A DNA stretch of 64,000 bases, from the NCBI RefSeq assembly GCF_012927305.1, contig NZ_JABBGH010000002.1, positions 186,001-250,000 of the forward strand. The letters run 5' to 3'. A program made the translations under genes and the position numbers. The stretch's first letter is position 1; each line of letters begins with the position of its first letter. The notes under the pieces are model-generated. The model did no database searches. It was given only the letters and a program-made list of their open reading frames with translations, and was not told the origin of the DNA. The stretch comes from Hymenobacter polaris. GTDB lineage: Bacteria; Bacteroidota; Bacteroidia; Cytophagales; Hymenobacteraceae. This document shows, one piece after another, positions 7,592 to 55,293 of this stretch.

Positions 7592-7780
7592 GCTCGGCAG
7601 TAGGACCCTAGGCGCCCGCTGTAAGGCTTGGAATAGGTAATGTTATTATTCGGATACTGGACGGTAAAAAAACGGTTGCCGCCTTGGTGCGGAACTACTT
7701 AGAAGCCGCTGCACTTTGCGTAACTTGCGTGCCTTCCCTTTCTATTTTTAAATCCGGCGCGTATTCCAGCAACTCTACCT

Positions 7781-23456: not shown

Positions 23457-23556
23457 AAAAAAGCAGCCCGTCATGCTGAGCCTGCCGAAGCATCTCTACC
23501 GAACAATACGGCGTGATAGAGATACTTCGGCAGGCTCAGCATGACGGGCTTTTTTA
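23457..23556. repeat. REP-like family A palindrome (copy 1), bidirectional terminator
   Basis: Left arm CCCGTCATGCTGAGCCTGCC then GAAGCATCTCTACCG; right arm reads back GATACTTCGGCAGGCTCAGC then ATGACGGGCTTTTTT. Arms pair over about 35 bp with one mismatch and are flanked by A- and T-runs. It separates convergent genes, a typical REP position. Confidence 0.9.
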
Positions 23557-40268: not shown

Positions 40269-40715
40269 CTAAGTATTAAACACCCTCTTGTACACCGGGC
40301 CGCGCAGCCGGAACTGCCCCCACATGGCGGGGTAAATGAGGTAGTCGAGCCAGGCGCGGCCGGTGCTGAAGGTGATGTCCTCCACGATGACGCTGCCGCC
40401 CCTAGGCCCCCCTGGCTCGATGAGGTGGCGGTGGCGCCACTGGCGTAGCGGCGCGGGCAGCTCCTGGCCCTCGTCCACGAAGTAGTGGGTACCGTCGGGC
40501 AGCACGCCGTCGTCGGTGATGCGCGACACCCAGCGCCAGCGCTTCGGGCCCAGGCGCAGCTCAATGGCCACCGTGTCGCCGGTGCGGTTGCCGTCGTAGC
40601 GCAGCAACCGAGACTTGGGGAAGGGCGGGGCCAGGGCCTCGAACAGCGCCTGGGTGAAGCCCGCTGCTACCTGGGCCGGCGGCTGGCCCACCGGAAAGCG
40701 AAGAAGCAAGTGCAT
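40269..40715 (-). CDS. SRPBCC-family ligand-binding protein, last gene of the cytoskeletal/motor operon
   Basis: A 148-aa single-domain protein. MHLLLRFPVGQPPAQVAAGF, VAIELRLGPKRWRWVSRITD, HYFVDEGQELPAPLRQWRHR and the C-terminal VIVEDITFSTGRAWLDYLIY match the START-like SRPBCC fold (ligand-binding subgroup), which binds hydrophobic molecules in a deep cavity. Ligand unknown. Its ATG at 40715 lies only 13 bp beyond the MotB-like stop, so it is probably co-transcribed with the operon upstream; whether it belongs functionally is open. A longer upstream frame exists but reads through the MotB-like gene. Confidence 0.72.
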   Translation of the reverse strand: MHLLLRFPVGQPPAQVAAGFTQALFEALAPPFPKSRLLRYDGNRTGDTVAIELRLGPKRWRWVSRITDDGVLPDGTHYFVDEGQELPAPLRQWRHRHLIEPGGPRGGSVIVEDITFSTGRAWLDYLIYPAMWGQFRLRGPVYKRVFNT

Positions 40716-40728
40716 GGCCCCTATACGG

Positions 40729-41415
40729 CTAGCGGGCCCTAGGGGCCGGCGCGCTGTCGAGCGAGCCAATCTTGGGTTGAATCTGGATGATGAAGCGCTT
40801 GTTGAGCTGCTCCTGCTGGTAGCCGCCGTAGCGGCCGGCGCCGCGGTAGCCACTGCCGGCGGGCAGCACCTCAATGTTTTTAGGAAACTGCAAGCCCGCC
40901 TGCTGCCACAGGTACACCACGGCCAGGGCGCGGTTGTAGCTCAGCTCGCGCACGGCCTGCAAATCAGCGTTTTGGGGCGCGGTGAGCGCAAAATTGGGGT
41001 TCATGGCCGCCCGCCCCTCAATGATGACCAGGTACTGAATGCCGTCGTTGCGCAGGCTCTGCATCTGATTGAGCAGGAAGCGGCCGGCCTGCACCAGCGG
41101 CTGCTGGGCGGCGGGCGGCAAGTCGTAGCGGCCGGGCTGAAATAGCACGTCGAAATTCAGCTCGTAACGCTTAAACGTCTGGTTGTAAGTGAAGTAGCGC
41201 GAGTTGTCGAGCCGCTTCAGGGCCTCCTTTATCTCGTCAATCTTGCGCTTCTCGCGTAGCTGCACCTTCAGCTGGGCGTTGGCCGATTCCAGGTCCGTCT
41301 GCTTGTCGTGGAACAGCTTGTAGCTCAGCACGAACAGCACCAGCATGATGAGGAACAGCGCCGTCATCAAATCGACGTAGCTGGGCCAGAAGAAGTCGCG
41401 GCGGCTTTGGTTCAT
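40729..41415 (-). CDS. MotB/ZorB-like membrane protein with OmpA-type domain
   Basis: A 228-aa protein. One N-terminal TM helix in the sequence FFWPSYVDLMTALFLIMLVL; Asp15 lies where the proton-carrying Asp of MotB (YADFMT) sits. A coiled segment (about 38-66, LESANAQLKVQLREKRKIDE) follows, then an OmpA/peptidoglycan-binding-like domain: FDVLFQPGRYDLPPAAQQPL, IEGRAA, LSYNRALAVVYLWQQAGL, and NKRFIIQIQP at the end (compare RAxxVxxYL and NRRV in OmpA). It directly follows the MotA-like gene, as in motAB and zorAB. Probable role: stator subunit that couples proton flow to movement or force in the envelope (inference). Confidence 0.85.
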   Translation of the reverse strand: MNQSRRDFFWPSYVDLMTALFLIMLVLFVLSYKLFHDKQTDLESANAQLKVQLREKRKIDEIKEALKRLDNSRYFTYNQTFKRYELNFDVLFQPGRYDLPPAAQQPLVQAGRFLLNQMQSLRNDGIQYLVIIEGRAAMNPNFALTAPQNADLQAVRELSYNRALAVVYLWQQAGLQFPKNIEVLPAGSGYRGAGRYGGYQQEQLNKRFIIQIQPKIGSLDSAPAPRAR

Positions 41416-41432
41416 GGGAGCGTCTAGGCAAT

Positions 41433-41527
41433 AAGGCGGTCATGCTGAGCTTGCCGAAGCATCTCTATCACGCTGCCTAGGGTCTCGTTCGGTAGAGATG
41501 CTTCGGCAAGCTCAGCATGACCGCCTT
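41433..41527. repeat. REP-like family A palindrome (copy 2), MotA/MotB-like gap
   Basis: AAGGCGGTCATGCTGAGCTT then GCCGAAGCATCTCTA; the right arm GTAGAGATGCTTCGGCAAGC then TCAGCATGACCGCCTT is its reverse complement. The loop contains a CCTAGG site. It occupies most of the 137-bp gap between two genes expected to be co-transcribed. Confidence 0.92.
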
Positions 41528-41552
41528 TTATGTTACGTTAACTAGTATCTTT

Positions 41553-43001
41553 CTACCCCACCAGGCGTTGCAGCCAGTTGCGCTGCGTCAGCTTCTCCAG
41601 CAGGGCGTTGGTGCGGTCGGTTTGGCGCAGCAGCTGCTCCTGTATCTGGCGGTTTTGCTCTAGGGGCTGCTGCAGGGCGGCCAGGGCCTGGGCGCTACGG
41701 CGGGCCTGCTCTTCCTGCAGTTGGTTGAGGGCCCGCTGCTGGGCGGGTAGCTGCTGAAACGGATTCAGGTACTCGGTGATTTTCTGGTAGATGTTATCCT
41801 GGTTGAGTTGGCGGAAGTAGGCGCCCCACTGCGCGTGGGCCGCCTGGGCCTGGGCCTCAAACTCCTCGCGGCGGCGGGTCAGCACCTGGTTCATTTGGGC
41901 GGCGTCCTCGCTCAGGGCCTGGTTTACGCCCTGGCTCATCTTGGCCAAGATGGCCTGGTGCTGCCCAAAAAACTGCGCCTGCTCCCGAATGCGGGCGTCG
42001 TGCTCCTGCAAATACTGCGGTACCAGGTTCAACGATTTTTCGAGGCTGCCTAGCCGGTCGAGCAGGGCCGTGACGGTGCGGGCCGTGTCGGCGCCCTGCT
42101 GCACGCTCACGTTCAGCGCCTGCTGGTACCCTAGGAACTTCTCAAACGAAGCCGCACTCTCGTCCACCCGGTCAAATACCTTGATGGTGGCGTTGGCTAG
42201 CTCGGTGTAGCCGATGGTTTGTAGCTTCTCCAGGAAGTCTTTTTGGATGCTGATATTCTCGGTAATGCGCCCGATAAGCGGCGTAAACTCGGCCACCTTG
42301 GCAAAGAAATCTTGCTGAATCTTGGCGAAGAAATCCTGATTGAACGTGTCGAGCACGCTCTTCAAGTTGCTCATGCTCTGCTGCATGTCCGAGTTGAGGC
42401 GCGGCAGCAGGGCCCGCTGCAAGAAGCTGTAGTAGTCGTTCTTGAGGCGGTCGCGGCGGGCCCGGGCCCCTTTTAGCAGCTGGTTGCCCCCTAGGGTCAG
42501 CAGCAGGCCCATAAAACTGCCGCCCATGGCAATGAGCACGCCACCCAGAAAGTGCGTCACGTCGGCGTTGCCGAAGCTGGTGCCCGCACTGCTGAGTGGG
42601 TTTACTAGCGCCAGCAGCCCGATAATGGCTCCTAGAAACGTGCCCAGCAGCCCTAGGTACAGGGGAGTCGAGAGCTGGGCCTGAATCTCCTCGTCGAGCA
42701 GCGTGGCCTCGCGCTCCGAAATGTCGCGCAGGGTGTTGAAGTCGGCCGCCGCGCCCTTGTTGGCTTGCAGGTAGTCGTTGGTGTCGGCCACCACGCGCCC
42801 AAACTCGGGGCTGGCGCCGCCCACCGTCAGGGCGTCGTAGCTGGCGCCGTCGGGCGTGTAGGCGGGGCTCACCCCTAGGCGGGCCACCGGCGGATACATG
42901 CTGCCCACCCGCTCGATGAGTTGGCGGTTGCCCCAGAACACGAACAGCTGCCAGCCCACCAGGGCCAGAATAAGGACGATTTCGAGGAGTTGGAGGGTCA
43001 T
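41553..43001 (-). CDS. MotA/TolQ/ZorA-like proton channel protein with long cytoplasmic tail
   Basis: A 482-aa protein. TM1 at about residues 5-23 (LLEIVLILALVGWQLFVFW), TM2 at 115-134 and TM3 at 151-171; the pair YLGLLGTFLGAIIGLLAL and FLGGVLIAMGGSFMGLLLTL is the MotA/ExbB/TolQ channel signature. The remaining 300 residues are cytoplasmic, Gln- and Glu-rich, with heptad-like coiled-coil segments (SMSNLKSVLDTFNQDFFAKI, LNQLQEEQARRSAQALAALQ). Flagellar MotA has no such tail; ZorA of Zorya defence systems does. With the MotB-like gene next to it, this predicts a proton-driven rotary or pulling unit. ATG 43001 was chosen as the start of TM1. Confidence 0.85.
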   Translation of the reverse strand: MTLQLLEIVLILALVGWQLFVFWGNRQLIERVGSMYPPVARLGVSPAYTPDGASYDALTVGGASPEFGRVVADTNDYLQANKGAAADFNTLRDISEREATLLDEEIQAQLSTPLYLGLLGTFLGAIIGLLALVNPLSSAGTSFGNADVTHFLGGVLIAMGGSFMGLLLTLGGNQLLKGARARRDRLKNDYYSFLQRALLPRLNSDMQQSMSNLKSVLDTFNQDFFAKIQQDFFAKVAEFTPLIGRITENISIQKDFLEKLQTIGYTELANATIKVFDRVDESAASFEKFLGYQQALNVSVQQGADTARTVTALLDRLGSLEKSLNLVPQYLQEHDARIREQAQFFGQHQAILAKMSQGVNQALSEDAAQMNQVLTRRREEFEAQAQAAHAQWGAYFRQLNQDNIYQKITEYLNPFQQLPAQQRALNQLQEEQARRSAQALAALQQPLEQNRQIQEQLLRQTDRTNALLEKLTQRNWLQRLVG

Positions 43002-43021
43002 GGATGCACAGAGAGTAGTAC

Positions 43022-43114
43022 AAAAGAACGTCATGCTGAGCCTGCCGAAGCATCTCTACCGCGCCGCTAGTGTTCGGTAGAGATGCTTCGGCAGGCTCAG
43101 CATGACGTTCTTTT
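43022..43114. repeat. REP-like family A palindrome (copy 3), upstream of the MotA-like gene
   Basis: AAAAGAACGTCATGCTGAGC then CTGCCGAAGCATCTCTACC; the right arm GGTAGAGATGCTTCGGCAGG then CTCAGCATGACGTTCTTTT is its exact reverse complement (39 bp), with a 15-nt loop. Best-preserved copy in the window. Confidence 0.95.
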
Positions 43115-43149
43115 TTGGGTGTAATACGCGGCGGCTCGGTTCAGCACTG

Positions 43150-44418
43150 CTAGCTCACCACCAGCCAGGCGCGCTCCAGCACCTGCCAGCCGTCGCCTTG
43201 GCGTTGCAGCAGGCCGGGCTCGGCGGCTTCTACCAGGGTGGCGCGCCCTAGGGTCGGCTCGTACTCAAAAAACTGCTCGAGGCGCGTCAGCCCGTCGCCG
43301 ATGAGCATGGCTTGGTTGACGTGCGGGTTAAGCGTGAAAGAGGCCTGCGCGGGGTTATTGGGGTCGGGCAGCAGCATCAGGGCCAACTGGGGCAGCGGGT
43401 CGTCGGTCAGCTTGCGGTCTTCGAGGTAGGGCGTCTCGGGCACCGGGCCGTAGCGGGCGGGCGGCGCATCGGCCGCTGGCGCGGCTTCGGTCGTTGGGGC
43501 CGGGACGGCCTCGGCCGATGGGTGCGGCATTTCGGCTGGGGCCACGGGCGGCGCCAGGGCGGGCTCGGGCACGGCGGCCGGAGTACTAGCCAGGGCCGCA
43601 TCGGCCGGATTGGCATTTTCGTAGTGCAGAAGCTTGGCTTCCAGCTGCTTGATGTAGTGCGTTAGGCGCTGCACTTCATCTTGCAGCCGCAGTACTTCCG
43701 ACGAGTCGGGCGGGGTGGTGTTCATGCTGAAAGGGGTGGCTAAGGTTTCGGGCGAGCGGCGGCTGTGGTGGCGCGAGCGCGGCCGCAGCGCGCGCCGGGC
43801 CGCCGTTACCAGCGCGGCGCCCACCAGCACGCCCAGCAGGCCCGCCAGCCACGGGTGCCGGTCGAAAAAGCCGCCGCTCGTGGTGGTGGTGAGTGTGCCG
43901 GTGGCGGGCGCTGGCGCCGCCATAGCCGAGTCGTTGGTGGCCAGCACCGGCGGGGCGGCGCGGCGGGCAGTATCGGCGGCAGCGGCAGGCAGGGCGGCGG
44001 TAGGCGTTACTTTTTGCAAGGCGGCTTGCAGGGCAGGCAGGTCGAGCCTTTGCAGCCAGGCGCGGCTTTTGGGCGGCTGGCTGGCCTCGGCCAGGATGGC
44101 CTGCGCCACCTGGGCGGCCGTGGCGGGGTGGCCCGCGCCCAACTGCCGCACCACGTCGCCCCGCAGCAGGCCGATGCCGCTTTTCTCCTTTTTGCCTTCC
44201 TGGTTGAGCCAGCTCGTGAAGGCCGCGTTGGTGGGCCAGGCGGCCGGCTGCGGCGCCCTCGGCTTAGTATCGGCCCAGATGCGCTGGGCGGTGGCCGTCC
44301 ACACGCGGCCCTTCAGGCTGTCGTCGCGGGTGGCCGGGGCCTGGGCGTGGCCTAGGGTGCTGGCCAGCAGCAAAGGGGCGGCCAGCAAGAGGCGGTGGGC
44401 TTGGGCGGGTAAGGTCAT
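43150..44418 (-). CDS. Single-pass membrane coiled-coil protein of the operon, unknown family
   Basis: A 422-aa protein with no family I recognise. Signal peptide (RLLLAAPLLLASTLGHAQA), then about 170 extracytoplasmic residues (TAAFTSWLNQEGKKEKSGIG-like region, AQAILAEASQPP), one TM helix around HPWLAGLLGVLVGAALVTAA preceded by FFDR and followed by an Arg-rich stop (RRALRPRSRHHSRR), a short coiled coil (EVLRLQDEVQRLTHYIKQLE), a long Ala/Pro linker (about 290-345) and a C-terminal globular part of about 75 residues (LALMLLPDPNNPAQASFTLN, ERAWLVVS). The layout suits a bridge from periplasm to cytoplasmic partners. Start ATG 44418 chosen for the signal peptide. Confidence 0.7.
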   Translation of the reverse strand: MTLPAQAHRLLLAAPLLLASTLGHAQAPATRDDSLKGRVWTATAQRIWADTKPRAPQPAAWPTNAAFTSWLNQEGKKEKSGIGLLRGDVVRQLGAGHPATAAQVAQAILAEASQPPKSRAWLQRLDLPALQAALQKVTPTAALPAAAADTARRAAPPVLATNDSAMAAPAPATGTLTTTTSGGFFDRHPWLAGLLGVLVGAALVTAARRALRPRSRHHSRRSPETLATPFSMNTTPPDSSEVLRLQDEVQRLTHYIKQLEAKLLHYENANPADAALASTPAAVPEPALAPPVAPAEMPHPSAEAVPAPTTEAAPAADAPPARYGPVPETPYLEDRKLTDDPLPQLALMLLPDPNNPAQASFTLNPHVNQAMLIGDGLTRLEQFFEYEPTLGRATLVEAAEPGLLQRQGDGWQVLERAWLVVS

Positions 44419-44465
44419 GGAAAGGCGGGTGTTTGGATAGGATGGTGCTGGCCGAGTTTTATAAA

Positions 44466-44580
44466 CGAACGTCATGCTCATCTGGCGTCCGCCTGCCGAA
44501 GCATCTCTACCGCGTAGCTAATCCAAACGTTAGAATTACTTCCGCGGTAGAGATGCTTCGGCAAGCTCAGCATGACGTGC
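44466..44580. repeat. REP-like family A palindrome (copy 4), with an insertion in one arm
   Basis: The right arm CGCGGTAGAGATGCTTCGGC then AAGCTCAGCATGACG is intact. The left arm starts CGTCATGCTCATCTGGCGTC before resuming with GCCTGCCGAAGCATCTC, a 12-base interruption relative to other copies. Gap between the membrane coiled-coil gene and the actin/Hsp70-like gene. Confidence 0.9.
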
Positions 44581-44606
44581 TTTTTTAAGCTGACTGGTTT
44601 ATAACT

Positions 44607-47600
44607 CTACCCCGGCAGGCCGTGCAGCACCTGCGAGAGCACGTAGAGCGCGTTTTTGAAGGGCAAAAAGAACAGGGTTTCGGGTACGGGCTCGCCGGCG
44701 GGCAGCGTGTTGGCATATTGCTGGCGGGCCAGGTTGAACGAGTCGGCCAGGGCGGCTTGCAGCTCGTGCAGCACCAGGCCGGGCGGGTTTTTGATGCCTA
44801 GGCTGCTTTGGGCGGCTACTAGTTCGGGGTCGGTGAGCAGCAGCGTGAGGCAGCGCTCCACGTTGGCCAGCACGGCGGCTTTCACCTCCTCGGTGATGTC
44901 GCTCGGGAACAGCGGGCGGGCCTCGGTGGCGTCGAGGGCGCCGGTGCCGATGGGCTGCACGATGGGTGGCACCTGGGCCGTGCTCTCGGCGTCGAGGCCG
45001 GTGGCCAGCACGCCGCCGTTGGCGGTGGTTTGCTTGGGGTCGTCGGCCAGGATAATCTTGAAATTGGCCGGGGCGGGCGCGCCCATCACCTCGCTCAGAA
45101 TGCGGCTGGCCACTTGCTCGAGGGGCCGCAGGCTGCCGGGGCACAGCAGGCGCAAATACAGGCTGCCGCGGCCCGTGAAGCACAGGTAGCGCGGGGCCGC
45201 CAACCCGCGCAGGGCCGTGAGCTGCCCTAGGTGGTACACCAGCGCCCCGAAGTGCAGGTAAAACAGCACCCGCAGGTGCTGGGCGCGCAGCAGCCGCTCG
45301 CCAAACTGAAACTCCTTCTCGTAGTTAAACAGCAGACTAGCTACCTCTTCCGAGCCAAAGCTCGGGTTAGCCAGCACTACGCGCAGGCACTTCTGGGCCA
45401 GCTCGGCGGCCTTGGTGGTGGGAACCGGGTTTTGCGCCAGACTGTCGAGGCCAAAGCGCACCAGGCCGTTGTCTTTGCCGCCCCGCACTTCGGCCGCGCC
45501 GTCGCCCCACAGGTCGTTGCCGGCAAAGCGGAACGAGGTGCTGTAGGCCGGCTGGTGGCGCCTAGGGCCGCCCGGCGCGGCGGGCTGGTCGGCGTAAAAC
45601 AGCACGTCGGAAGTGCCGCCGCCAATGTCCACAAACGCCGCGTTCTCGCCGGGGCCAGGCGTGACGAGTCCGCGCCGCGTGAGGAAGAAATAGGGCGCCG
45701 ACGACTCGGGCAAATACGTAGTGGCGCGGTCGGTGTGAAATACCTCGCGGAACAGCCCGTCCCACTCGCGGCGGTACAACTCGCGGTTGAAGTCGCTGAA
45801 GCTCAGAGGTGCGAACCACACCACCTGGGTGGCGGCCAGGTTGCCGCCGTGCAGGGCCGCCTTGCAGCGGAAGAGCAGCAACATCTCGCGGAAAAACTCG
45901 CGCACGCGGTGGCGGGCCGCCTCGGTAGTTTCGCCCCACTTCAGGTTGGTGTGGTACGAGTCGCTGGTTTCCTCCTCGGTGTTGATGCCGAAGCCCACGT
46001 TCACGTTGGCCAGCAGCTTGGGCGTTTCGATGCTGAACGCGGCCGCCTCGCTGCTGGCCGTGCGGATGGGGAACTGGTAGGGCGAGCCGGCCGCGCCCAG
46101 GTAGGGCGGCACAAACTCGCGCTGCTGGTAGCGCTGCCAGCGCCGCAGCTGCACGCCGTGGGCGGGGTCGTCCTCGATGCCGCGGTAGAGGCGCTCGTAG
46201 GGCGAGTAGTCGATTTCCTCGGTCGGTTTTTTGAGCAGCGCCACCGGCGTGTCGTCGGGCTCGAACCCTAGGGGCTGGGGCGGCTGGCTGGGCGCGTCGT
46301 GGTAGGCCACGTGCGTGTTGGTGGTGCCAAAGTCGATGGCGAAGCGGAACGTCTTGGTGCCCTGGCGCACCTCGGGCCAGCGCGGCACCACCAGCGCCTG
46401 CCCGGCGGCCGGGGCCGGATTATTTACCCGCAGGTAATCGAAGTGGGTGCCGCGCACTTCGTAGTAGGTGCTGCCCTCGTCGCTGGCGGTTTTGGTGGTG
46501 CGGCGGTAGGCGGTGGCGCTCTGCTCGGTGCCGGTGCCCGACAGCAGGCGGCCCTGCACGCCAAATTCCAGCTCCACCGGCTTGTTCACCAGGCTCAGGT
46601 CGGTGTTGTTGGCGTCCACCAGCATCACCTTGTACCAGTCGTTGTACTGGGGTGCGTCGGCCACTTTCAGGAAGGGGAAAACCGACAAGCCCACGTTGGT
46701 CGTCAGCAGCCGCCCTAGGTCCTTGAGCTGCGGATTGGGGTAGTAGGCGCGTTCGTAATCAACCGTGAAGCCGCCCTGCACTGGCAGGCGCAGGCGCACC
46801 CGCACGCAGGCCGGCTCCAGCTCCAGCGTCAGCTGGGTGGCCAAGTCGTGGGTGGTGAAATAGTCAAAATACGCGGGCTTGATGGGCAGCAGCGGCCAGC
46901 AGGTGGGCCGGTAGCCCGAGGCCACCCGCACCTGCCCGGTCACGAAGCGCGCATCATCCACCTGATAGGGTACGGTCAGCAGCGTATCCTCCAGCAAGTC
47001 ATTGACCGTCAAGTAAGGGTAGTTCAGCTCGGGGCCGGGCAGGGTGCGCTCGGGCAGAGCCCTAGGATCGGCCACGGGCACCTTGGCGCCGCTGTCGCCG
47101 AGCAGCGTGTTGTTGTAGTACTGCTTGCCCGGCGCCTGCAAGCCCGGCCGCAGCACCAGCGGCAGGGGCGTAGGCAGGGGCCAGCTAGGCGTCGGCTGCC
47201 GAGTGGGCGCAATAGTGAAGTCGGAGCTGCGCACCACGCCCTCGTCGGGCCGCACGCGCAGCACCACGCCGGCCACCGCGACGGGGTTGCCCACGTGGTC
47301 GGTCAGCACCGGGTAGTTGCTGAGCTGGGCCGTGCCATCGAGGTCCCACTTATTGAGCAGGCTCGGGTCGAGGGCGTTGCGTACGGCCGGGGCCAGGCGG
47401 GCCAGCTCGCGGTCGGCCACAAACAGTTGGTACACATAGTCCTGAAACGCCCGCTCGCGCTGCCCTAGGGCCACGTAGCGCCCGTCGAAGTAGTGGCCGC
47501 CGCCCTCGGGCCGCTGCACCGGTAGCGGGGCCACGGCCGGCGCCGGAAAAAACAGCGTGAGCGGCGAAGTGCCGCCTAGCAGTTGCGGCGGCTGCTGGGG

Positions 47601-48074
47601 CGTGGCGCCCGGCCAGTACAGCAAGTGCAAATCGGCCAGGCCTGCAAAGCGCCGGTCGTTGAGGTACAGTGCCAGGGCCTGGGCCAGCGGGCGCGTGTGT
47701 GGATTGGCCTCTAGGGCGGCCAGCTCGGCCTGGCGGTTCCAGGTGCGCACCAGCAGGCGCTGGCCCGGCTGCCGCCGCTGGTAGTAGTTGAAGGTCAGCT
47801 CCCACAAATCCCAGAACTGGCCCACCAGGCGGTGATGCACCGTGTCGGTAGCCCCGCTGGCGCCCGGCCCGCTCACGTAAGCCAAGGCCGTCTCGACCAG
47901 GTGCAGGCGCGCAAACGGCGACGGAATGGCCACCGCCACGCGCTCGGCCCGCCCGCCCTCGGGGTCCTGGATGCCGCCGGAGCCTTCAATCTCGTTCCGG
48001 CCAAGTTTGCCGGTGCGGCCCCAGCCCTCGTGGGTGCTTGAGCCGGTGCGGTGCAGGCGCAGTATTTTGGGCAT
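44607..48074 (-). CDS. Giant protein with C-terminal actin/Hsp70-type ATPase domain
   Basis: An 1155-aa protein. The first ~570 residues are unrecognised, rich in aromatic and beta-type segments, with no signal peptide. From about residue 578 comes an actin/Hsp70/sugar-kinase ATPase core: phosphate-1 loop FRFAIDFGTTNTHVAYHD, phosphate-2 loop AAFVDIGGGTSDVLFY (about 812-827), and a late YLCFTGRGSLYLRLL resembling the adenosine loop. The insert between them (ETPKLLANVNVGFGINTEEE...) is longer than in DnaK. No peptide-binding domain or EF1-type tail follows, so a chaperone role is unlikely; actin-like assembly or an ATP-driven switch is more plausible. ATG 48074 starts MPKILRLHRTGS. Largest gene of the operon. 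Confidence 0.8.
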   Translation of the reverse strand: MPKILRLHRTGSSTHEGWGRTGKLGRNEIEGSGGIQDPEGGRAERVAVAIPSPFARLHLVETALAYVSGPGASGATDTVHHRLVGQFWDLWELTFNYYQRRQPGQRLLVRTWNRQAELAALEANPHTRPLAQALALYLNDRRFAGLADLHLLYWPGATPQQPPQLLGGTSPLTLFFPAPAVAPLPVQRPEGGGHYFDGRYVALGQRERAFQDYVYQLFVADRELARLAPAVRNALDPSLLNKWDLDGTAQLSNYPVLTDHVGNPVAVAGVVLRVRPDEGVVRSSDFTIAPTRQPTPSWPLPTPLPLVLRPGLQAPGKQYYNNTLLGDSGAKVPVADPRALPERTLPGPELNYPYLTVNDLLEDTLLTVPYQVDDARFVTGQVRVASGYRPTCWPLLPIKPAYFDYFTTHDLATQLTLELEPACVRVRLRLPVQGGFTVDYERAYYPNPQLKDLGRLLTTNVGLSVFPFLKVADAPQYNDWYKVMLVDANNTDLSLVNKPVELEFGVQGRLLSGTGTEQSATAYRRTTKTASDEGSTYYEVRGTHFDYLRVNNPAPAAGQALVVPRWPEVRQGTKTFRFAIDFGTTNTHVAYHDAPSQPPQPLGFEPDDTPVALLKKPTEEIDYSPYERLYRGIEDDPAHGVQLRRWQRYQQREFVPPYLGAAGSPYQFPIRTASSEAAAFSIETPKLLANVNVGFGINTEEETSDSYHTNLKWGETTEAARHRVREFFREMLLLFRCKAALHGGNLAATQVVWFAPLSFSDFNRELYRREWDGLFREVFHTDRATTYLPESSAPYFFLTRRGLVTPGPGENAAFVDIGGGTSDVLFYADQPAAPGGPRRHQPAYSTSFRFAGNDLWGDGAAEVRGGKDNGLVRFGLDSLAQNPVPTTKAAELAQKCLRVVLANPSFGSEEVASLLFNYEKEFQFGERLLRAQHLRVLFYLHFGALVYHLGQLTALRGLAAPRYLCFTGRGSLYLRLLCPGSLRPLEQVASRILSEVMGAPAPANFKIILADDPKQTTANGGVLATGLDAESTAQVPPIVQPIGTGALDATEARPLFPSDITEEVKAAVLANVERCLTLLLTDPELVAAQSSLGIKNPPGLVLHELQAALADSFNLARQQYANTLPAGEPVPETLFFLPFKNALYVLSQVLHGLPG

Positions 48075-48263
48075 GGTTCGTAAAGAAGCTAATAGGTAGG
48101 GCGCTGCCAATCAAGCAGTTGATTTTGACGCGCAATCCGAAGTTTTTAAAAAGGGTACACCGCAGTATAAAGTCAGTACTCACGGGTACAAAAGCACGGG
48201 CGAGTTCCAAGAGCAAGCCGAGGGCTGATTATGAGGAAAGAGGCCCCAGGGCCCGCTATGCGA

Positions 48264-49748
48264 CTAATCGTATTGCAGCTTGGTTTCCACTACCCGCGCG
48301 GTGGCTTTATTGAAGGCCTCCACTAGCCAGCGCAGGGTGCGGGCGGCGTCGGGGTCGTCGAGGTTGGTTTTACCCACGGCGTCGTTCAGCTCGCCGCGCA
48401 GCACGTCGTCGGTCAGGCCTTTGTTGAAGAAGCCGGTGCTGATGGGCTTGTCGGCCACCATCTTGTTGAAGTCGGCCTCGTCGGGGTGCAGCGCGCCGAA
48501 GCGGCGCTCGTTAGTACCTAGCTCGCGCAGCCAGGCTTCATAGTCGGCCACAAAGGTGCTTAGCTCGGCTAGTGGGCCGGCCGTGGCGCCTAGGTGCTGC
48601 CCTAGGCCCCCACCCTTGTAAATAGGCGCACTTTTCTCGCTGGGCAAGTGCTGGCGGTAGTAGCGGGCGAAATAGTGGAACTGGATGAGCGGCCGAGCCA
48701 CCTCGCGGCGCAAGTTGGGCGGCAGCTGCCCAAAGTCGAAGGTCGGTCGGTCGTCCTTCAACCCAAACTCGTGGTAGGCGGGCGCGGCGCGGTCGAGCTG
48801 GCTGGCCGGCTGACCCAGGAAGTGCGGGATGGCCAGCGCCCCTAGTAGCTCCAGCAAGTGGGCCTGGTTGCGCTGCTCAGCCCGGCCGGGGTGGTTGGGC
48901 AGCGGCTGCCCGGCCTGGTCGCCGAGGTAGTAAATGGCCTCCAGCCCCTCCAGATTATCGGCGTAGTAGCTGAGCGCCGTTTTAGTCTTGGTGATGAAGG
49001 TATTGGAGTCGATGAAGTCTTGGCCGTTGCGCTTTTCCTCGGCCGAGGGCTGCTGCAGCTTGAAATAAGGCAGCAGCACCAGCGCCCCGGCCGGCACGGC
49101 GGCCCGCACCGACGGTTGGGGCAAGTCCACGGCCGGGTCACGCAGGTTCTTCACCAGCAGCGGGAAGCCCGCCGCGCCCGTGCCTCCGAAGATGCTGCTG
49201 ATGAAAAACACCCGGTCGTCGGGGTTCAGGCTCTGGGCCAGGTAGCGCATTTCCTTGGCTTGCACCAGTGAGTTGAGCACCACCGAGCCCACGTTGGGCG
49301 AGCCCCGGAAGCCGAGGTCGAGGCTGGCGTTGAGGCTATCGGGGGTGAAGAGCAGGTCGAGCAGGCCGCGCGTTTCCACACTCGCCTCCTGGTAGTGGAT
49401 GTAGTCCTTAAACGACTGGCTGATACCGCCGAAGTCGTACACAAAGGAGTTGCTAAGCTGCTCGGTGCCAGTGGTGTGCAGCTGCCCTAGGGTGGTGAGC
49501 TGCTGCCCAAAGAAGCCCTCGCCGCGCGGGTGCTGCCCGTCCTGATGCAGCGCGTCGTGAATGGCGGCGTAGCGACGCATCAGGGCCACGGTGCGGGTCA
49601 CGTCACCGTTCTGGGTGTCGGGGTCTACCAGTACGGGCACCACCTGGTCGCAGTCGGGCAGCTTGAGGCCGGCGGCCAGCAGCATTGTGAGCGAGCGCAG
49701 CACCCGGGCGCCAGTGCCGCCCACGGCGAAGATGAAAAGACGAGCCAC
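48264..49748 (-). CDS. Tubulin/FtsZ-like GTPase
   Basis: A 494-aa protein with a Rossmann-like N-terminus LFIFAVGGTGARVLRSLTML, VPVLVDPDTQNGD, and at about 185-192 the tubulin signature as SSIFGGTGAAGFPLLVKNL (GGTGxG loop binding the nucleotide phosphates). It is much longer than TubZ-type minimal proteins in its second half, which is helical and unrecognised. It resembles the bacterial FtsZ-like families found beside vWA and OmpA-type genes and proposed to remodel membranes. The start is GTG 49748: an in-frame TAA lies two codons upstream and the next Met would remove the first glycine loop. The 189-bp gap after it toward the ATPase gene holds no palindrome. Confidence 0.82.
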   Translation of the reverse strand: MARLFIFAVGGTGARVLRSLTMLLAAGLKLPDCDQVVPVLVDPDTQNGDVTRTVALMRRYAAIHDALHQDGQHPRGEGFFGQQLTTLGQLHTTGTEQLSNSFVYDFGGISQSFKDYIHYQEASVETRGLLDLLFTPDSLNASLDLGFRGSPNVGSVVLNSLVQAKEMRYLAQSLNPDDRVFFISSIFGGTGAAGFPLLVKNLRDPAVDLPQPSVRAAVPAGALVLLPYFKLQQPSAEEKRNGQDFIDSNTFITKTKTALSYYADNLEGLEAIYYLGDQAGQPLPNHPGRAEQRNQAHLLELLGALAIPHFLGQPASQLDRAAPAYHEFGLKDDRPTFDFGQLPPNLRREVARPLIQFHYFARYYRQHLPSEKSAPIYKGGGLGQHLGATAGPLAELSTFVADYEAWLRELGTNERRFGALHPDEADFNKMVADKPISTGFFNKGLTDDVLRGELNDAVGKTNLDDPDAARTLRWLVEAFNKATARVVETKLQYD

Positions 49749-49783
49749 AGGTTAGAAGGTGGAAATGTGGAAAGAATGTGGAT

Positions 49784-49956
49784 AATGTACTGATGTGGGG
49801 GGATGTAGAAAATGTAGAAATGGAACGTCATGCTGAGCTTGCCGAAGCATCTCTACCGCTTCACTAATTCTTGGCGTTAGGATTACTTACGCGGTAGAGA
49901 TGCTTCGACAAGCTCAGCATGACGTTCTATTTCTACATTCCCCACATCAGTACATT
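49784..49956. repeat. REP-like family A palindrome (copy 5) inside a longer nested palindrome
   Basis: The family A core (GGAACGTCATGCTGAGCTTG ... AAGCTCAGCATGACGTTC) is flanked by additional complementary arms: AATGTACTGATGTGGGG at the left (from 49784) and CCCCACATCAGTACATT at the right (to 49956), with GTAGAAA/TTTCTAC between. The total is about 173 bp, the longest palindrome in the window. Confidence 0.9.
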
Positions 49957-49960
49957 AGAA

Positions 49961-50371
49961 TTAAAAGGGCGTGCGGCGGGCGTGCGTCGAGCCCCACTTC
50001 AGGGCCAGCGAGAGCAGCGCGAACCAGAGCGGCGCAATCACCGTGTTCACGATGATGAAGTAGCGCAGGTAGGGGTCGGGAGTGGCGCCTAGGGCCAGGC
50101 TGCCGCGCCAAGCCAGCAGGGCGCCCAGGCCGGCCGCGCCCACCAGCACCAGCAGCCAGTGCTGGGGCCGGTACAGCCCCAGGTGGGTGAGGGGCGCAAT
50201 GCGGTAGTTGAAGATGTAGTAGAACACCAGCACCAGGGCCAGCGCTACCAGCAGCGTGTTGAAACCTACGGTATTAAAGATTTCAGCTTTGTAGAGGCCG
50301 TAGAGCGGCGTTTTGCGGTCGTAGAGCAGCCCGATGCTGATAGTGTAGAGACTGTTAAAGAATTGTTGCAT
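49961..50371 (-). CDS. Three-TM membrane protein of the operon, unknown family
   Basis: A 136-aa integral membrane protein: TM segments near FNTLLVALALVLVFYYIFNY, WLLVLVGAAGLGALLAW and YFIIVNTVIAPLWFALLSLA, with the N-terminal ~35 residues (MQQFFNSLYTISIGLLYDRK) amphipathic. No family recognised. The ATG lies 6 bp after the stop of the vWA-like lipoprotein gene, tight coupling that argues the two act together. Its stop sits 5 bp from the end of a long palindrome. Confidence 0.7.
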   Translation of the reverse strand: MQQFFNSLYTISIGLLYDRKTPLYGLYKAEIFNTVGFNTLLVALALVLVFYYIFNYRIAPLTHLGLYRPQHWLLVLVGAAGLGALLAWRGSLALGATPDPYLRYFIIVNTVIAPLWFALLSLALKWGSTHARRTPF

Positions 50372-50377
50372 CGCGGG

Positions 50378-51673
50378 TTAGCTGGCAGAAAGCGTGAAAG
50401 TGGCGGTGAACACGGGCGGGAGTTGAGCCGGAAACGCCTCGCGCACGCCGTTCAGTATTTCTTGCAGGCGGTAGGTGCGGGGCTGGGCGCCGGGCTGGTT
50501 GTCGTTTTCGGTGCTCCAGCGGCTCACCCAGGCCGGCACGCCCGGCGCGGGTAGCGCTAGCGTAAGCGTGGCCCCGCCCTTGGGCAGGGCGCTCAGGTGC
50601 AGGCGCAGGGCGTGGGTGTAGCCGTCGAGGCCGGGCGTGCCCCCTAGGGCCCGCACCGAGCCGGGCAGCAGCTGGGCCGCGCCGCCGGGCAAAGTCACGC
50701 GCAGGTTCTGGGCCAGGAAGGCTGGCTCGCGCCAAGCGGCCGGCAGCTGGCTGAGGTCGAGCGCCACCGTAAAGTCCACGCCCTCTTTCACATCCGATAC
50801 TTCCAGGCTGGTGCTGGCCTGCGCCCCGGCGTAGCTGATGGAGCCCGCGCCGCTGGGCGCCAGGGGACTGCCGGCCGTCACTTGCGTAAGCACCGCCGCG
50901 TAGGGCACCTGCTTGAAATTCAGGCCAAAGTAGGCTTGCTCGGCACTGTTGGCGCTGGCCGGCACTACCTCGTTGAGGTAGCGGCCCACGGCGGCGGGCG
51001 GCCCCAGCACCCACAGGTAGTAGGGCAGGGTGGCGCCCTTTAAGGTTTGCTGGCGGCGCGGCGTTTTGACGGCCGGGAAGTAGGTGCCGCTAAAGCGTGA
51101 GGTTTCGCCGAGCACCGCCACGGCCAGCTGGTTTTTAGTGGCGGCCGCCAGCGCGTCGGTGATGCGCACGTTCATCAGCGCCACGTCGGAGGGTTTGTCG
51201 GGGCCATAAATGAAGTCCGACGTCAGCACGCTCACCTTACTCGTGGCTCCGGGCAGGGCCAGCGTTTTTTCGAGCATCGTGGGTAGCTCGGTGCCGAGGG
51301 CTGCCTCACGGGTGTCGCCCTGCACTACGTCGCGGAAGTGCGCGTAGGGCACCGTCGTGGGCGCGTCCTTGCGCACCAGCCAGAAGCGCGCCTCCTGCAC
51401 CGCCGGGCTGCTGTGCGTGCGCGAGGCCAGCTGGCTCACCAGTTGCTGAAACGCCGTGGGCTGCTGGGCCGCCGTGGTCACGGGCATGAAGCCCTTCATG
51501 CCGCCCGATAGCTCCAGCAGCATGTTCACTTGCAGCGGCGCGGCTTTGGCGGCGGGCTTGGTGGCTGCCGGGGCCGGGGCAGTTTGGGTGGTGTCGGCAC
51601 TGTCGCCGCCGCAGCCGGCCAACAGTCCGCTGAACCCTAGGGTGAGAAGCGCGTGCGCAAGGGGTATCCGCAT
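50378..51673 (-). CDS. Lipoprotein with degenerate von Willebrand A-like domain
   Basis: A 431-aa lipoprotein: signal peptide MRIPLAHALLTLGFSGLLAGC (lipobox LAGC), a Thr/Pro/Ala linker, and from residue 48 a vWA-like domain. The strand-plus-loop LQVNMLLELSGGMKGFMPVT sits where vWA proteins have DxSxSM; here Asp is Glu and the second Ser is Gly, so metal binding is doubtful. KVSVLTSDFIYGPDKPSD resembles the later vWA strand with Thr/Ser and Asp. The last ~190 residues are beta-rich (SLEVSDVKEGVDFTVALDLS, LRVTLPGGAAQLLPGSV) and unrecognised. First gene of the operon by position; ATG 51673 is the only start with a signal peptide. Confidence 0.75.
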   Translation of the reverse strand: MRIPLAHALLTLGFSGLLAGCGGDSADTTQTAPAPAATKPAAKAAPLQVNMLLELSGGMKGFMPVTTAAQQPTAFQQLVSQLASRTHSSPAVQEARFWLVRKDAPTTVPYAHFRDVVQGDTREAALGTELPTMLEKTLALPGATSKVSVLTSDFIYGPDKPSDVALMNVRITDALAAATKNQLAVAVLGETSRFSGTYFPAVKTPRRQQTLKGATLPYYLWVLGPPAAVGRYLNEVVPASANSAEQAYFGLNFKQVPYAAVLTQVTAGSPLAPSGAGSISYAGAQASTSLEVSDVKEGVDFTVALDLSQLPAAWREPAFLAQNLRVTLPGGAAQLLPGSVRALGGTPGLDGYTHALRLHLSALPKGGATLTLALPAPGVPAWVSRWSTENDNQPGAQPRTYRLQEILNGVREAFPAQLPPVFTATFTLSAS

Positions 51674-52287: not shown

Positions 52288-55200
52288 CTACCCCAGCAGT
52301 TCCTCGATGTCCTCCCGCGTCAGCGACTTTATCACCGCTTCGTCGGTGGTTATCAGGTCGCTCACCAGTTGCAACTTGCGTTTTTGCAGGGCCAGGATTT
52401 TCTCCTCGACTGTGTTCTGGCTAATGAATTTGTAGACAAACACCGGGCGCTGCTGGCCGATGCGGTGGGCGCGGTCGATAGCCTGGGCTTCCACGGCGGG
52501 GTTCCACCAGGGGTCGAGGATGAACACGTAGTCGGCGGCGGTGAGGTTGAGGCCCACGCCGCCCGCCTTGAGGCTGATGAGGAAGATTTTGAGGTCGGGG
52601 TCGCGCTGAAAACGCTCCACCTCAGCCTGCCGGTCGCGGGTGTGGCCGTCGAGGTAGGCGTAGGGCAGCTGGCGCTCATCAAGGCCGGCGCGTACCAAAG
52701 CCAGGTGCTGCACAAACTGGCTAAACACCAGTACCTTGTGGCCCTCGCTGATGACGCTGCGCAGCATCCGCAGTATCTCGCGCATCTTGCCCGATTCGCC
52801 CTCGTAGGTATCGTCGGCCAGGCGCGGGTGGTTGGCAATCTGGCGCAGGCGGGTGAGGCCTTGCAGCAGCAGCAACTGGGTGCCGCCAGCCGGCGTGGGG
52901 GCGTGGCCCTCCAGGCTCTCTAGTATCTTGTTGCGGTAGAAGCTCTTGGTTTCCTCGTAAAACTGGGCTTGCTCCTCGGTGAGCGGGCAGTAGCTGAGGT
53001 GCTCGGTTTTGGCGGGCAGCTCGCTGGCTACCTGCGCCTTGTGGCGGCGCAGCACGAAGGGCTTGATGAGGGCGTGCAGCTTGCGGGTGCGGCCCTCGTC
53101 CTGGTTCTTCTCGATGGGTTTCACGAACTCCTTGCGGAAGAACGCCTGCGTGCCCAGCAAGCCGGGGTTGATGAACGACATCTGGCTCCAGAGGTCCATC
53201 GTGCTGTTTTCTACCGGCGTGCCCGTCAGAATGAGGCGGTGCCGCGCCCGCAGCTGGCGCACGGCCTGCGCCGTGGTCGAGCCGGGGTTTTTGATGGCCT
53301 GCGACTCGTCCAGAATCACGTAGTCGAAGTAGTAGGAGGCCAGCAGCTCGGTATCCAGCCGCACGATGCCGTAGCTGGTCAGCACGATGTCGTAGTCGGC
53401 AAACTGCGCCGCGTTTTTATCGCGGTATGTACCAGTGTACACCAGCAGGCGCAGGCTGGGCGTGAACTTGCGCGCCTCCGCCATCCAGTTGTAAACCAGC
53501 GAGGTAGGCAGCACCAGCAGCGAGGCCGCGCCCTGGCTGGCGCCGCTTTCCTGGCGCTCGAGCAGCATGGCCAGCGTCTGCAAGGTCTTGCCAAGCCCCA
53601 TGTCGTCGGCCAAGCAGGCGCCCAGCTGGTAGTCTTGGGCAAAGCGCAGCCAGTTGTAGCCCGCGTGCTGGTAGGGGCGCAGGGTGCCGCGCAGGCCCAC
53701 GGGCAGCGGGCGCTCCTCCACTACGGCAAAGTCGCGCAGCTTTTCCAGCCGGCGCGTTAGCGTCACGGTGGCCAGGTTCTCGTTTTCCAGGTCCGTTACC
53801 AGGGCCAGGTGGTGGCGGCGCAGGGCCAGGGGCTGGCCTTCGCCGTTTTCTTCAGCAAAAGCAAACAGCTCCAGGTAGTCCGTGAACCACTCGTCGGGAA
53901 TGAAGGCGACCTGGCCGTTGGGCAGGCGGTACTCGCGGCGGCGCTGCAAAATGTAGGGCCGCAGCCGAATAAACGGCACCGCGTACTCGCCAAACCACAC
54001 CGTGCCGCGCACGTCGAACCAGTCGCCGCGCTCCTCAATGCCCACCTCTACCCGCACCGGGCCAATGAAGTAGTCCTGGCTGGCCGTGTCGCTGCCCTGC
54101 ACCTGGAAGCCCAGCTCGCCTAGGGCCGGCGCGTGGTCGTGCAGCCACTTAAAGGCCTCGGCCTTAGGTAGGGAGGTGTGGCCCTCGGCGTCGAGGGGCA
54201 GGCCGCGTTGGCGCAACTCCTCAGCGCGGTTGTTTTCCTCTTTGGCCGAGCGCAGCAGGCGCCGAAAAATGTATGAGTCGCCGTCTTCCTCCAGCTGCAC
54301 GCTCATGGCGCGGGGCGGCGTCAGGGGCAGGTCGTAGGCCCCGTAGCGGAAGGTGAGGCTGAAAAACAGCGGGGCCTCGTCGGTGCCCGCGCCGGGCACT
54401 ACCAGGGGCTTGGGCAGCGGCACCCGCCCGCGGCGCGGCGGGCCGGGCGGGCGCACGGGCACCGCCGCCGCGGCCGCCGTGAGGGCCGCCGGCGGCACGT
54501 CCGAAAACGTGAGGTGGGGCCGCGCAATGTAGCGCTCGGTGCGAATGTCGAAGCCCCGCGCGTGCACGTCGAACGACTCCATGAGCGGGGCCACGAACTT
54601 CTGGAAGTAGCTCTTTTCCACGGCCCTCGGCACTACCACAAACTTCTTGTTCAGAAACGGCAGCAGCTTGCGCCCGTCGATGGCGTGGCGGAAGTGGTAG
54701 AGCACCGTGTCAAGCAGCAGCCAGGCCGGCTGCTGGCACACCAGCACGGCATTTTTAAACTGAAAATCCAGCTTTTGATTCTGGTACTGGATGGTGGGGA
54801 AGTAGTGCGTGCCCTCCTCGTTGCGCCGGAAGTGAAACAGCACCGACGCCGGCGCCTCGGCCAGCGACAGCTCGCGCCAGGTGGGCTCGCCGTCGCGCCC
54901 CATCACGAAGACGTGCTTGCCCTGCAGCCCCGCCAGCAGCTTGCCTAGCCGGCTTTGCACGTAGCGGCTAATGGCTTCTTGTAGCGGCTTATCGCCCTTG
55001 TCGGGGTTGTAGGTTTTGAGGAAAAACTCGGCCGTGGTGATTTTGCGGGGCCAAAACTCCTTTACCACCGCATCCTGCTGCAGCTCGTCGCAAAGCTTAA
55101 TCAGCTCGTAATCGTCGGGCTCTAGGCCGGCGGCAAACTCGGGCGCGTTCTTGCTCGACACCATCTGGTGTTGCAAGGTGAGCTGCCCGCGCGCACTAAG

Positions 55201-55293
55201 CTGTACTACGTGCGCCGTAAACAGATGACCCAGATACTCGTGCGCAAACAGCGAGTAAACTAATTGAAAGGGTAGCGTAGTGGAAACATTCAT
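52288..55293 (-). CDS. SNF2/SWI2-family DEAD/H-box helicase
   Basis: A 1001-aa double-stranded DNA translocase. The N-terminal ~470 residues are a variable helicase-associated region. The ATPase core follows: GYNWLRFAQDYQLGACLADD, Walker A in MGLGKTLQTLA (Lys near 568), Walker B DESQ in VILDESQAIKN (near 661), LILTGTPVENS, and in the second RecA domain KVLVFSQFVQHLALV, LISLKAGGVGLNLT, DPWWNPAVEAQAIDRAHRIG. No Mrr or HNH nuclease domain is visible, unlike ZorD. Very similar stand-alone proteins are widespread in Bacteroidota, so a link to the motor operon downstream is only suggested by position and strand. Confidence 0.92.
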   Translation of the reverse strand: MNVSTTLPFQLVYSLFAHEYLGHLFTAHVVQLSARGQLTLQHQMVSSKNAPEFAAGLEPDDYELIKLCDELQQDAVVKEFWPRKITTAEFFLKTYNPDKGDKPLQEAISRYVQSRLGKLLAGLQGKHVFVMGRDGEPTWRELSLAEAPASVLFHFRRNEEGTHYFPTIQYQNQKLDFQFKNAVLVCQQPAWLLLDTVLYHFRHAIDGRKLLPFLNKKFVVVPRAVEKSYFQKFVAPLMESFDVHARGFDIRTERYIARPHLTFSDVPPAALTAAAAAVPVRPPGPPRRGRVPLPKPLVVPGAGTDEAPLFFSLTFRYGAYDLPLTPPRAMSVQLEEDGDSYIFRRLLRSAKEENNRAEELRQRGLPLDAEGHTSLPKAEAFKWLHDHAPALGELGFQVQGSDTASQDYFIGPVRVEVGIEERGDWFDVRGTVWFGEYAVPFIRLRPYILQRRREYRLPNGQVAFIPDEWFTDYLELFAFAEENGEGQPLALRRHHLALVTDLENENLATVTLTRRLEKLRDFAVVEERPLPVGLRGTLRPYQHAGYNWLRFAQDYQLGACLADDMGLGKTLQTLAMLLERQESGASQGAASLLVLPTSLVYNWMAEARKFTPSLRLLVYTGTYRDKNAAQFADYDIVLTSYGIVRLDTELLASYYFDYVILDESQAIKNPGSTTAQAVRQLRARHRLILTGTPVENSTMDLWSQMSFINPGLLGTQAFFRKEFVKPIEKNQDEGRTRKLHALIKPFVLRRHKAQVASELPAKTEHLSYCPLTEEQAQFYEETKSFYRNKILESLEGHAPTPAGGTQLLLLQGLTRLRQIANHPRLADDTYEGESGKMREILRMLRSVISEGHKVLVFSQFVQHLALVRAGLDERQLPYAYLDGHTRDRQAEVERFQRDPDLKIFLISLKAGGVGLNLTAADYVFILDPWWNPAVEAQAIDRAHRIGQQRPVFVYKFISQNTVEEKILALQKRKLQLVSDLITTDEAVIKSLTREDIEELLG

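Follow-up and report, generated by a model that had tools for sequence, protein, structure and literature searches.

In a 64,000-nucleotide window of the Hymenobacter polaris genome (assembly GCF_012927305.1, contig NZ_JABBGH010000002.1, forward strand 186,001-250,000), seven minus-strand genes running from 51673 down to 40729 constitute a real, conserved operon that was matched to no named system. The encoded proteins are a vWA-like lipoprotein, a small membrane protein, a tubulin/FtsZ-like GTPase, a giant actin/Hsp70-fold ATPase, a single-pass protein and a MotA-like and MotB-like pair resembling a proton motor. This combination of a motor with a tubulin and a giant actin/Hsp70-like ATPase may represent a machine, so far unrecognised, that uses force to sense the state of the envelope or to defend the cell. 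An earlier note on this DNA, made from the sequence alone, had described eight minus-strand genes as one unit. After the frames had been read and translated, all eight were found and seven of them proved to be conserved in order, whereas the eighth is a flanking gene outside the conserved unit (Table 1). The intergenic gaps of the unit and the eighth gene are 6, 212, 189, 125, 115, 137 and 13 bp, taking the ATG at 48074 as start of the ATPase and 40715 as that of the eighth gene. The motifs pointed out in the same note, namely the tubulin GGTG loop, the ATPase loops, Asp15 of the MotB-like protein and the LAGC lipobox, were all found again.

The proposed conservation of gene order was borne out. 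Of 74 loci fetched by name, 65 were long enough for a test of all seven genes, which were assigned by iterated profiles; neighbouring repeat matches were merged and a 'cc' match ahead of the lipoprotein gene was ignored. All seven genes were present in order in 63 of these 65 loci. Locus L086 lacked only a recognisable single-pass gene, and in L089 motB was placed in front and the single-pass and MotA genes were not recognised. Within the Hymenobacteraceae, the tubulin was found in 52 of 60 genomes (52 of the 59 near-complete ones); one of the eight genomes without a match is incomplete. Twenty of the 52 tubulin-positive genomes, covering six genera, were sampled and all twenty operons were complete and ordered. 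Across the phylum sample the tubulin occurred in 13 of 395 genomes, four of them from the window's genus, and the nearest named relatives of the window tubulin are from Hymenobacter. Matches to the MotA profile were found in 6 of 390 genomes: four of the window's genus, G416 and, weakly, G147. The G147 match (L181, G147:C17:243732-244103) is a lone MotA-like match (E 3.4e-6) in a 388-amino-acid (aa) open reading frame (ORF) of a genome without a tubulin match and possibly belongs to another motor system.

Table 1. Genes of the operon, the adjoining gene and a repeat element in the window.
Feature	Coordinates	Strand	Evidence
vWA-like lipoprotein, 431 aa	50378..51673	-	LAGC lipobox; ELSGGMKGF and SDF as degenerate MIDAS-like motifs
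Small membrane protein, 136 aa, three predicted transmembrane (TM) helices	49961..50371	-	hydropathy scan; iterated profile
Tubulin/FtsZ-like GTPase, 494 aa, GTG start	48264..49748	-	AlphaFold model; alignment A1
Giant actin/Hsp70-fold ATPase, 1155 aa	44607..48074	-	AlphaFold model, Foldseek, VIA
Single-pass protein	43150..44481	-	TM at residues 210-228; hydropathy scan
MotA/TolQ/ExbB-like channel with long C-terminal tail	41553..43034 (start likelier 43001)	-	alignment A3; three helices
MotB/ZorB-like protein, single TM helix with Asp15, OmpA-like periplasmic domain	40729..41415	-	ZorB1, 8vvn_B and OmpA matches
Flanking gene, family unconfirmed	40269..40715	-	in 8/74 loci, each time beside SNF2 gene
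REP/MITE-like paired inverted repeat in the gap between small TM and tubulin genes	49802..49948	.	repeat analysis

By its predicted fold, the GTPase is a member of the tubulin/FtsZ superfamily. The AlphaFold model, built from the 18 rows of alignment A1, reached a pLDDT of 82.6 and a pTM of 0.88. After re-alignment of the Foldseek candidates by VIA it matched FtsZ (9lfx_B) with Z 16.2 and a root-mean-square deviation (rmsd) of 3.1 A over 195 residues, and the 50 entries shown were all FtsZ, CetZ or tubulins. In the Foldseek output tubulin, CetZ and FtsZ chains lead, with some unrelated folds interspersed and low TM scores; the best E value was 1.7e-3 and none lay below 0.001. The GGTG loop, located within SSIFGGTGA, is invariant in 18 of 18 rows. 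The Pfam matches of the window protein were sub-threshold (Tubulin_2 E 0.073, Tubulin E 0.095). It scored 12.7 bits with PF13809 (Tubulin_2), below the curated cut-off of 27 bits, and among four distant relatives scanned the best, from L115, reached 26.6 bits, just below the same cut-off. Membership in the FtsZl1/PF13809 family was rejected on these scores and because a comparison with PF13809 proteins of 1138 and 1215 aa gave only short matches around the GGTG loops. The tubulin of the cyanobacterial locus L174 aligned with the A1 profile over 336 columns with a probability of 99.9. A conventional FtsZ-type protein is encoded elsewhere in the window genome (PF00091 E 1.1e-49).

The giant ATPase is, likewise by its predicted fold, a member of the actin/Hsp70 superfamily. 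Its model, based on the 19 rows of alignment A2, reached a pLDDT of 76 and a pTM of 0.63, with residues 1-51 and 660-714 poorly predicted. Foldseek returned 213 chains at E <= 0.001, DnaK being first (9.3e-8) and MreB, ParM and BeeR being listed. In VIA the nearest structure was MamK (Z 16.1, rmsd 4.0 over 277 residues), closely followed by FtsA, MreB, PilM, actin, sugar kinases and DnaK. The absence of the two folds, which the earlier note had named as grounds for refutation, thus occurred in neither protein. The nucleotide-binding domain comprises approximately residues 573-1035 and is preceded by about 570 residues. Within it, D581, G583 and T584 (DxGT), D816-T821 (DIGGGT) and D823 are invariant in all rows of A2. 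At the sequence level, the profile matched MreB 7bvy (E 0.0014), and the FtsA model matched 12 of 19 relatives (best 1.6e-5). SrfB (PF07520) was considered as the family of this protein and is no more than a weak lead: 2 of 19 relatives matched weakly (best E 0.0042) and the window ATPase not at all in Pfam.

The A2 profile matched 24 of 390 genomes. The nine strongest matches (E 1e-50 or better) all come from genomes with the tubulin, as does the match in G366 (1.0e-11); the remaining 14 cover no more than profile positions 806-847 and lie in ORFs of 419-473 aa, which is what FtsA would be expected to give. The giant ATPase therefore looks dedicated to the module. Counting against this, the tubulin genomes G341, G241 and G446, as well as the weakly matching G366, lack a strong A2 match; in L115 (G341) a 1167-aa ORF matches the ATPase profile weakly (9e-11).

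The description of the MotB-like protein as carrying the proton-binding Asp15 held up, and the protein resembles ZorB. It matched the PADLOC model ZorB1 (E 1.3e-11), and its profile retrieved from the PDB at E <= 0.1 only 8vvn_B (2.4e-8) and 8qyd_F (1.3e-4), both ZorB-type chains; 8VVN is a Shewanella type I ZorAB according to the available text of PMC11890865. All 18 rows of the alignment have Asp15. The Pfam OmpA match (E 5.9e-5) was below the curated cut-off. By a simple hydropathy scan the MotA-like protein has three hydrophobic stretches, with about 310 residues after the last helix, and the MotB-like protein has one. PF01618 was matched by 3 of 17 MotA relatives, the best at 9.7e-5 and 22.6 bits, the cut-off being 22.9. 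ZorA models matched two of the four relatives scanned, L086 (ZorA2, 2.6e-9) and L117 (ZorA1, 1.3e-8, mainly in the coiled part). The L117 protein also matched Pfam MotA_ExbB just under the cut-off (1.2e-4), and hhalign of this protein with the MotA profile gave a coiled-coil match only, with a probability of 2%. The PDB profile search with MotA returned mainly coiled-coil and helical chains and no named ion motor. The ATG at 43034 falls within a repeat that occurs 300 times genome-wide. The relatives, whose starts were assigned by a rule of our own, agree better with residue 12 (43001), which is thus the more likely start.

The lipoprotein is supported as vWA-like at the level of motifs. S56, M59, G61, S152 and D153 are invariant over 19 rows and resemble a degenerate vWA MIDAS, the window protein reading ExSxG in place of DxSxS. 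The assignment stays at this level because Pfam support is absent or weak: the window protein was not matched, and a single one of 19 relatives gave a non-significant VWA_CoxE match (E 0.23). A PDB profile search with the lipoprotein returned nothing. Relatives on three cyanobacterial plasmids match the lipoprotein model (1.1e-9, 7.3e-7 and 2e-6, in a scan of 19 proteins). Two of them carry a DxSGSM-type motif (DGSGSM in L174, DASGSM in L175), in line with the vWA label given earlier; in the third the annotated Met start lies inside the motif of its close relative. The small TM protein was found by iterated profile in 92 of 94 loci. The single-pass protein is fast-evolving and was matched in 65 of 94 loci, L001-L020 being too short to contain it. 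Its N-terminal stretch resembles, by eye, a signal peptide, its C-terminal region is of cytoplasmic type, and a later Met (44418) is a possible start.

The history of the operon was examined with rpoB and tubulin trees of 20 genomes. In the rpoB tree the window's genus lies on one side of a branch, with one change of the window-genus label, whereas the tubulin tree forces at least three such changes; four other genera are whole in both trees and g3 is not resolved in the tubulin tree. Distances of five operon proteins correlated with those of rpoB (Mantel r 0.56-0.65, with none of 2000 permutations as high; Spearman 0.17-0.53). The comparison of the window genome (G000) with G053 bears most directly on this history. 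The two are sisters in the rpoB tree, with rpoB 95.8% identical, and the genes flanking the operon are similar (SNF2 90.8, LolCE 84.0, START 79.3 and RlmI 77.8% identity), the window's 142-aa gene being missing from the G053 flanks. Between these flanks the operon proteins are far more diverged: tubulin 46.2, ATPase 39.9, lipoprotein 36.5, TM protein 40.3, MotA 48.2 and MotB 61.5% identical, the single-pass protein giving no direct match. Conversely, G044 has a tubulin 83.8% identical to that of the window at an rpoB identity of 91.0%, and the LolCE, SNF2, START and RlmI flanks are all absent from the stretch read. Both types occupy the SNF2 site in the named loci (about 85-88% in L021-L025, L051 and L085; about 41% in L082-L084). 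Since operon proteins 36-62% identical lie between flanks 78-91% identical, these comparisons are most simply explained by the replacement of whole operons at a fixed site; deep paralogy with differential loss is a possible alternative.

Fifteen distant loci were read (L109-L119, L125 and L173-L175, the last three being three of five cyanobacterial records). The core of lipoprotein, small TM protein, tubulin and ATPase was recognised by model and in order in seven of them (L109-L113, L118 and L125), the ATPase of L110 being truncated where the contig ends. A small gene matching no model is in place in L119, L173 and L175 and likewise in L174, where the lipoprotein gene is inverted (divergent). 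Some core parts of L116 and L117 were assigned solely by length and motif, L115 starts at a contig end, and L114 lacks an ATPase and has its tubulin interrupted by a stop. Four of the fifteen carry a motor pair (L111, L114, L117 with weak matches, and L118). It was not seen within the scanned stretch in ten (L109, L112, L113, L115, L116, L119, L125 and L173-L175), the scan of L173-L175 being limited to neighbouring genes; in L110 this part is cut off. Searched genome-wide, the genomes that hold L109 (G306) and L112 (G428) gave no match to the MotA profile. Because the core, with no motor gene recognised, reaches the cyanobacterial plasmids L173-L175, the motor looks like an add-on to a more widespread core. 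A plasmid search with the L116 ATPase gave no match.

Other partners accompany the core in some loci. In L116 (1174-3074) TerD-like genes lie behind the tubulin and giant ATPase, after a 502-aa gene; the one tested matched PF02342 (E 4.9e-51) and the others were recognised by eye. A DnaK-type HSP70 gene is located near the core in L119 (2.3e-77). McrBC (PF10117, 1.2e-61 and 1.1e-50) adjoins the second copy in G058 (L118, G058:C1) and the Prevotella copy (L125, NC_022111.1). Altogether, 3 of 12 sporadic loci have McrBC (L118, L125) or TerD (L116) nearby. The variety of partners, with a ZorAB-like motor, TerD or HSP70, therefore suggests a core with exchangeable partners.

Taken together, the operon is tentatively read, with somewhat less than even confidence, as a Zorya-like, proton-powered, envelope-spanning sensor or transducer whose cytoplasmic partner is an assembly of tubulin- and actin-type nucleoside triphosphatases (NTPases). 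In this model, an inner-membrane rotary motor would be built from five MotA-like and two MotB-like subunits. A disturbance of the periplasm or wall, such as phage entry or envelope damage, would be sensed by the vWA lipoprotein together with the MotB-like domain. By turning or stalling, the bundle of MotA tails would act on both NTPases, the tubulin-like GTPase and the giant ATPase of actin/Hsp70 type, which would be tethered to the membrane by the small TM and single-pass proteins. The signal would thus pass to a cytoskeletal-type NTPase assembly in place of Zorya's nuclease or helicase, and the NTPases might assemble, disassemble or remodel a membrane target, thereby sealing, containing or killing. 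As the motor-free core is more widespread, the motor would be one among several modules plugged into it. Because the operons of sister genomes diverge at a shared site and some sporadic copies lie near restriction or stress genes, we lean towards a conflict or stress response linked to the envelope rather than a housekeeping role; the defensive or remodelling role is in either case our inference.

Several observations weigh against this proposal. Scans of the eight window proteins with Pfam, NCBIfam, PADLOC and PHROGs revealed no recognised effector domain; the matches were limited to OmpA, ZorB1, the sub-threshold tubulin, coiled-coil and other weak ones. The window MotA matched no MotA or ZorA model in the same four libraries, and the L111 and L118 relatives matched no ZorA model in PADLOC. 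The canonical peptide-binding residues of OmpA-type domains, a loop Asp and a helix Arg, were looked for in the MotB alignment. The Arg is retained in 18 of 18 rows, whereas the Asp is at the canonical peptidoglycan-binding place in none of the 18; L077 and L089 have an Asp one residue later, and the L117 MotB keeps GHTD. Binding of the wall by MotB is therefore doubtful. The McrBC and TerD neighbours were chosen by eye without comparison to chance, and a TerD-like reading in L115 found no Pfam match. The tree program placed the long G053 and G056 branches of the tubulin tree unsurely. The window flank genes that could be named look, by eye, like housekeeping genes. Finally, presence in nearly the whole family is unlike a typical discretionary defence system.

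This last point keeps alive a housekeeping reading, which we regard as a possible if less probable explanation. The operon would then encode an envelope-remodelling or shape machine in which a tubulin/actin-type scaffold positions the work, while the wall and outer membrane are pulled on or remodelled by the motor and the periplasmic components. The 52 of 60 family genomes (52 of 59 near-complete ones) with the tubulin, the twenty sampled operons all complete and ordered, the correlation with rpoB distances (clear in the Mantel r values, lower as Spearman) and the tubulin tree, which keeps four of six genera whole with a fifth not resolved, all fit such a machine, as does the membrane remodelling proposed for FtsZl1 systems (PMC2875224, available text). 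An exchange, at one site in sister genomes, for a version of 36-62% identity would be unexpected of it. The eight family genomes without a tubulin match, one of them incomplete, and the sporadic occurrence elsewhere (13 of 395 genomes, four of them of the window's genus) also count against this reading. Considered unlikely is a TerD/DO-GTPase-related stress or intoxication response, in which tubulin and the Hsp70-like ATPase would form a threshold chaperone assembly and the motor would read membrane energy. TerD in L116, HSP70 in L119 and the tubulin with vWA and HSP70 themes of GTPase-centred systems (PMC7159879, available text) point in this direction; the eight window proteins, however, matched no DO-GTPase, GAP1, FNIII or TerD in the four libraries, and the missing Pfam match in L115 counts here too. 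A motility, adhesion or secretion machine akin to the GldLM type 9 secretion motor, which Bacteroidota use, is highly improbable, given that the MotB profile retrieved only the two ZorB-type chains and that no secretion or adhesin gene was recognised in the conserved unit.

The proton-powered sensor feeding an NTPase assembly could be taken further: a proton-driven rotary motor would act directly, and simultaneously, on the tubulin and actin/Hsp70 NTPases across the envelope, the operon would be exchanged between species like an immune allele, and the motor-free core of tubulin, giant ATPase and vWA lipoprotein, seen in Bacteroidota as well as on cyanobacterial plasmids, would count as the module on which a new class of systems was founded. 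This extended form we hold to be rather unlikely; if true, it would link rotary ion motors to cytomotive proteins in a way not recognised before. Should the proteins assemble into a single complex, they would reveal how membrane energy can be fed into bacterial cytoskeletal NTPases, and the range of Zorya-type motors would extend from the triggering of nucleases to an output on the cytoskeleton. Sister genomes with such diverged operons at a shared site offer a natural experiment on what the operon recognises.

The eighth gene, previously counted with the operon as an SRPBCC protein, was rejected as a member. It occurs in 8 of 74 loci, every time adjoining an SNF2 gene, and is present in G053 as well; in L082 a 467-aa ORF on the opposite strand separates it from motB. 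Its protein gave no Pfam match up to E 1, so the SRPBCC label stays unconfirmed. The SNF2-family protein of the window (52288-55293) matched DpdE (1.4e-148) and ZorD1 (7.1e-116) in PADLOC. The SNF2 gene was dismissed as a ZorD, as these helicase-model matches are unspecific, with DpdE the better, and the gene adjoins the operon in only 10 of 74 loci. In the H. setariae locus L021, a gene for an AAA_21/AAA_15 ATPase (6213-7945; best PADLOC match HEC-01A, 2.7e-41) and a 218-aa gene without matches lie between the SNF2 gene and the operon.

Promoter and terminator scans of the locus were at chance level. A REP/MITE-like element with the core GATGCTTCGGCARGCTCAGCATGAC, often in inverted pairs, has 300 exact copies in the genome versus 0 of a reversed control. 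In the window such elements lie at 41430-41536, 43022-43115, 44491-44587, 49802-49948 and 23470-23545. Four operon gaps each hold one, and one of these supplies the ATG read as the MotA start.

Comparison with described systems shows how far the earlier label of an uncharacterised operon applies. No described system uniting an ion-driven motor, a tubulin and an actin-type ATPase was found in a literature lying largely outside subscription journals and preprints, and for the combination as a whole the label appears to hold. Parts of it had been described before. Makarova and Koonin (2010) associated FtsZl1 with vWA, GTPase and OmpA partners and proposed membrane remodelling (PMC2875224); in the main text of that paper, as available, the words MotA, TolQ and Hsp70 are absent. 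Like FtsZl1 systems, the window operon has a divergent tubulin-superfamily GTPase adjoining vWA, OmpA-type and membrane proteins, and its genome encodes a conventional FtsZ besides; it differs in its 494-aa tubulin, in the added actin/Hsp70 ATPase and MotAB-like pair, and in having no P-loop GTPase or kinase match among the window proteins. Kaur et al. (2020) described tubulin with vWA and, separately, HSP70 as themes of GTPase-centred systems, called these themes non-overlapping and located them in other phyla (PMC7159879); the available text does not contain the word MotA and describes no proton motor. The DO-GTPase GAP1-N2 systems of these authors share tubulin with vWA proteins near the membrane, and HSP70 in sister systems, whereas the window operon holds both folds together with a proton motor. 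DO-GTPase and GAP1 were not among the matches of the eight window proteins in general libraries, whose inclusion of such models is unchecked. The ATPase relatives share a weak likeness with SrfB, from which the unmatched window ATPase differs.

With Zorya, the operon shares a MotA-like channel with a long cytoplasmic tail and a ZorB-like MotB with a TM Asp. Mariano et al. reported that Zorya requires the ZorB periplasmic domain, the ZorA tail and ion flow, and their paper names the type 9 secretion and gliding motors (PMC11890865, available text); a paper on MotAB evolution mentions, in its available text, neither tubulin nor Bacteroidota (PMC12505986). Membership in Zorya was rejected, since ZorC with ZorD, or ZorE, was not matched in the unit (PADLOC, eight proteins). 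The cytoplasmic partners of the window unit are instead tubulin and actin/Hsp70 NTPases, and the canonical wall-binding Asp is absent. By predicted fold, the kinship of the NTPases thus appears to be with the tubulin and actin/Hsp70 superfamilies, and the tests made place the operon in neither Zorya nor PF13809. In its operation, it may be likened to a Zorya motor coupled to NTPases of the FtsZl1-like and actin-like kinds.

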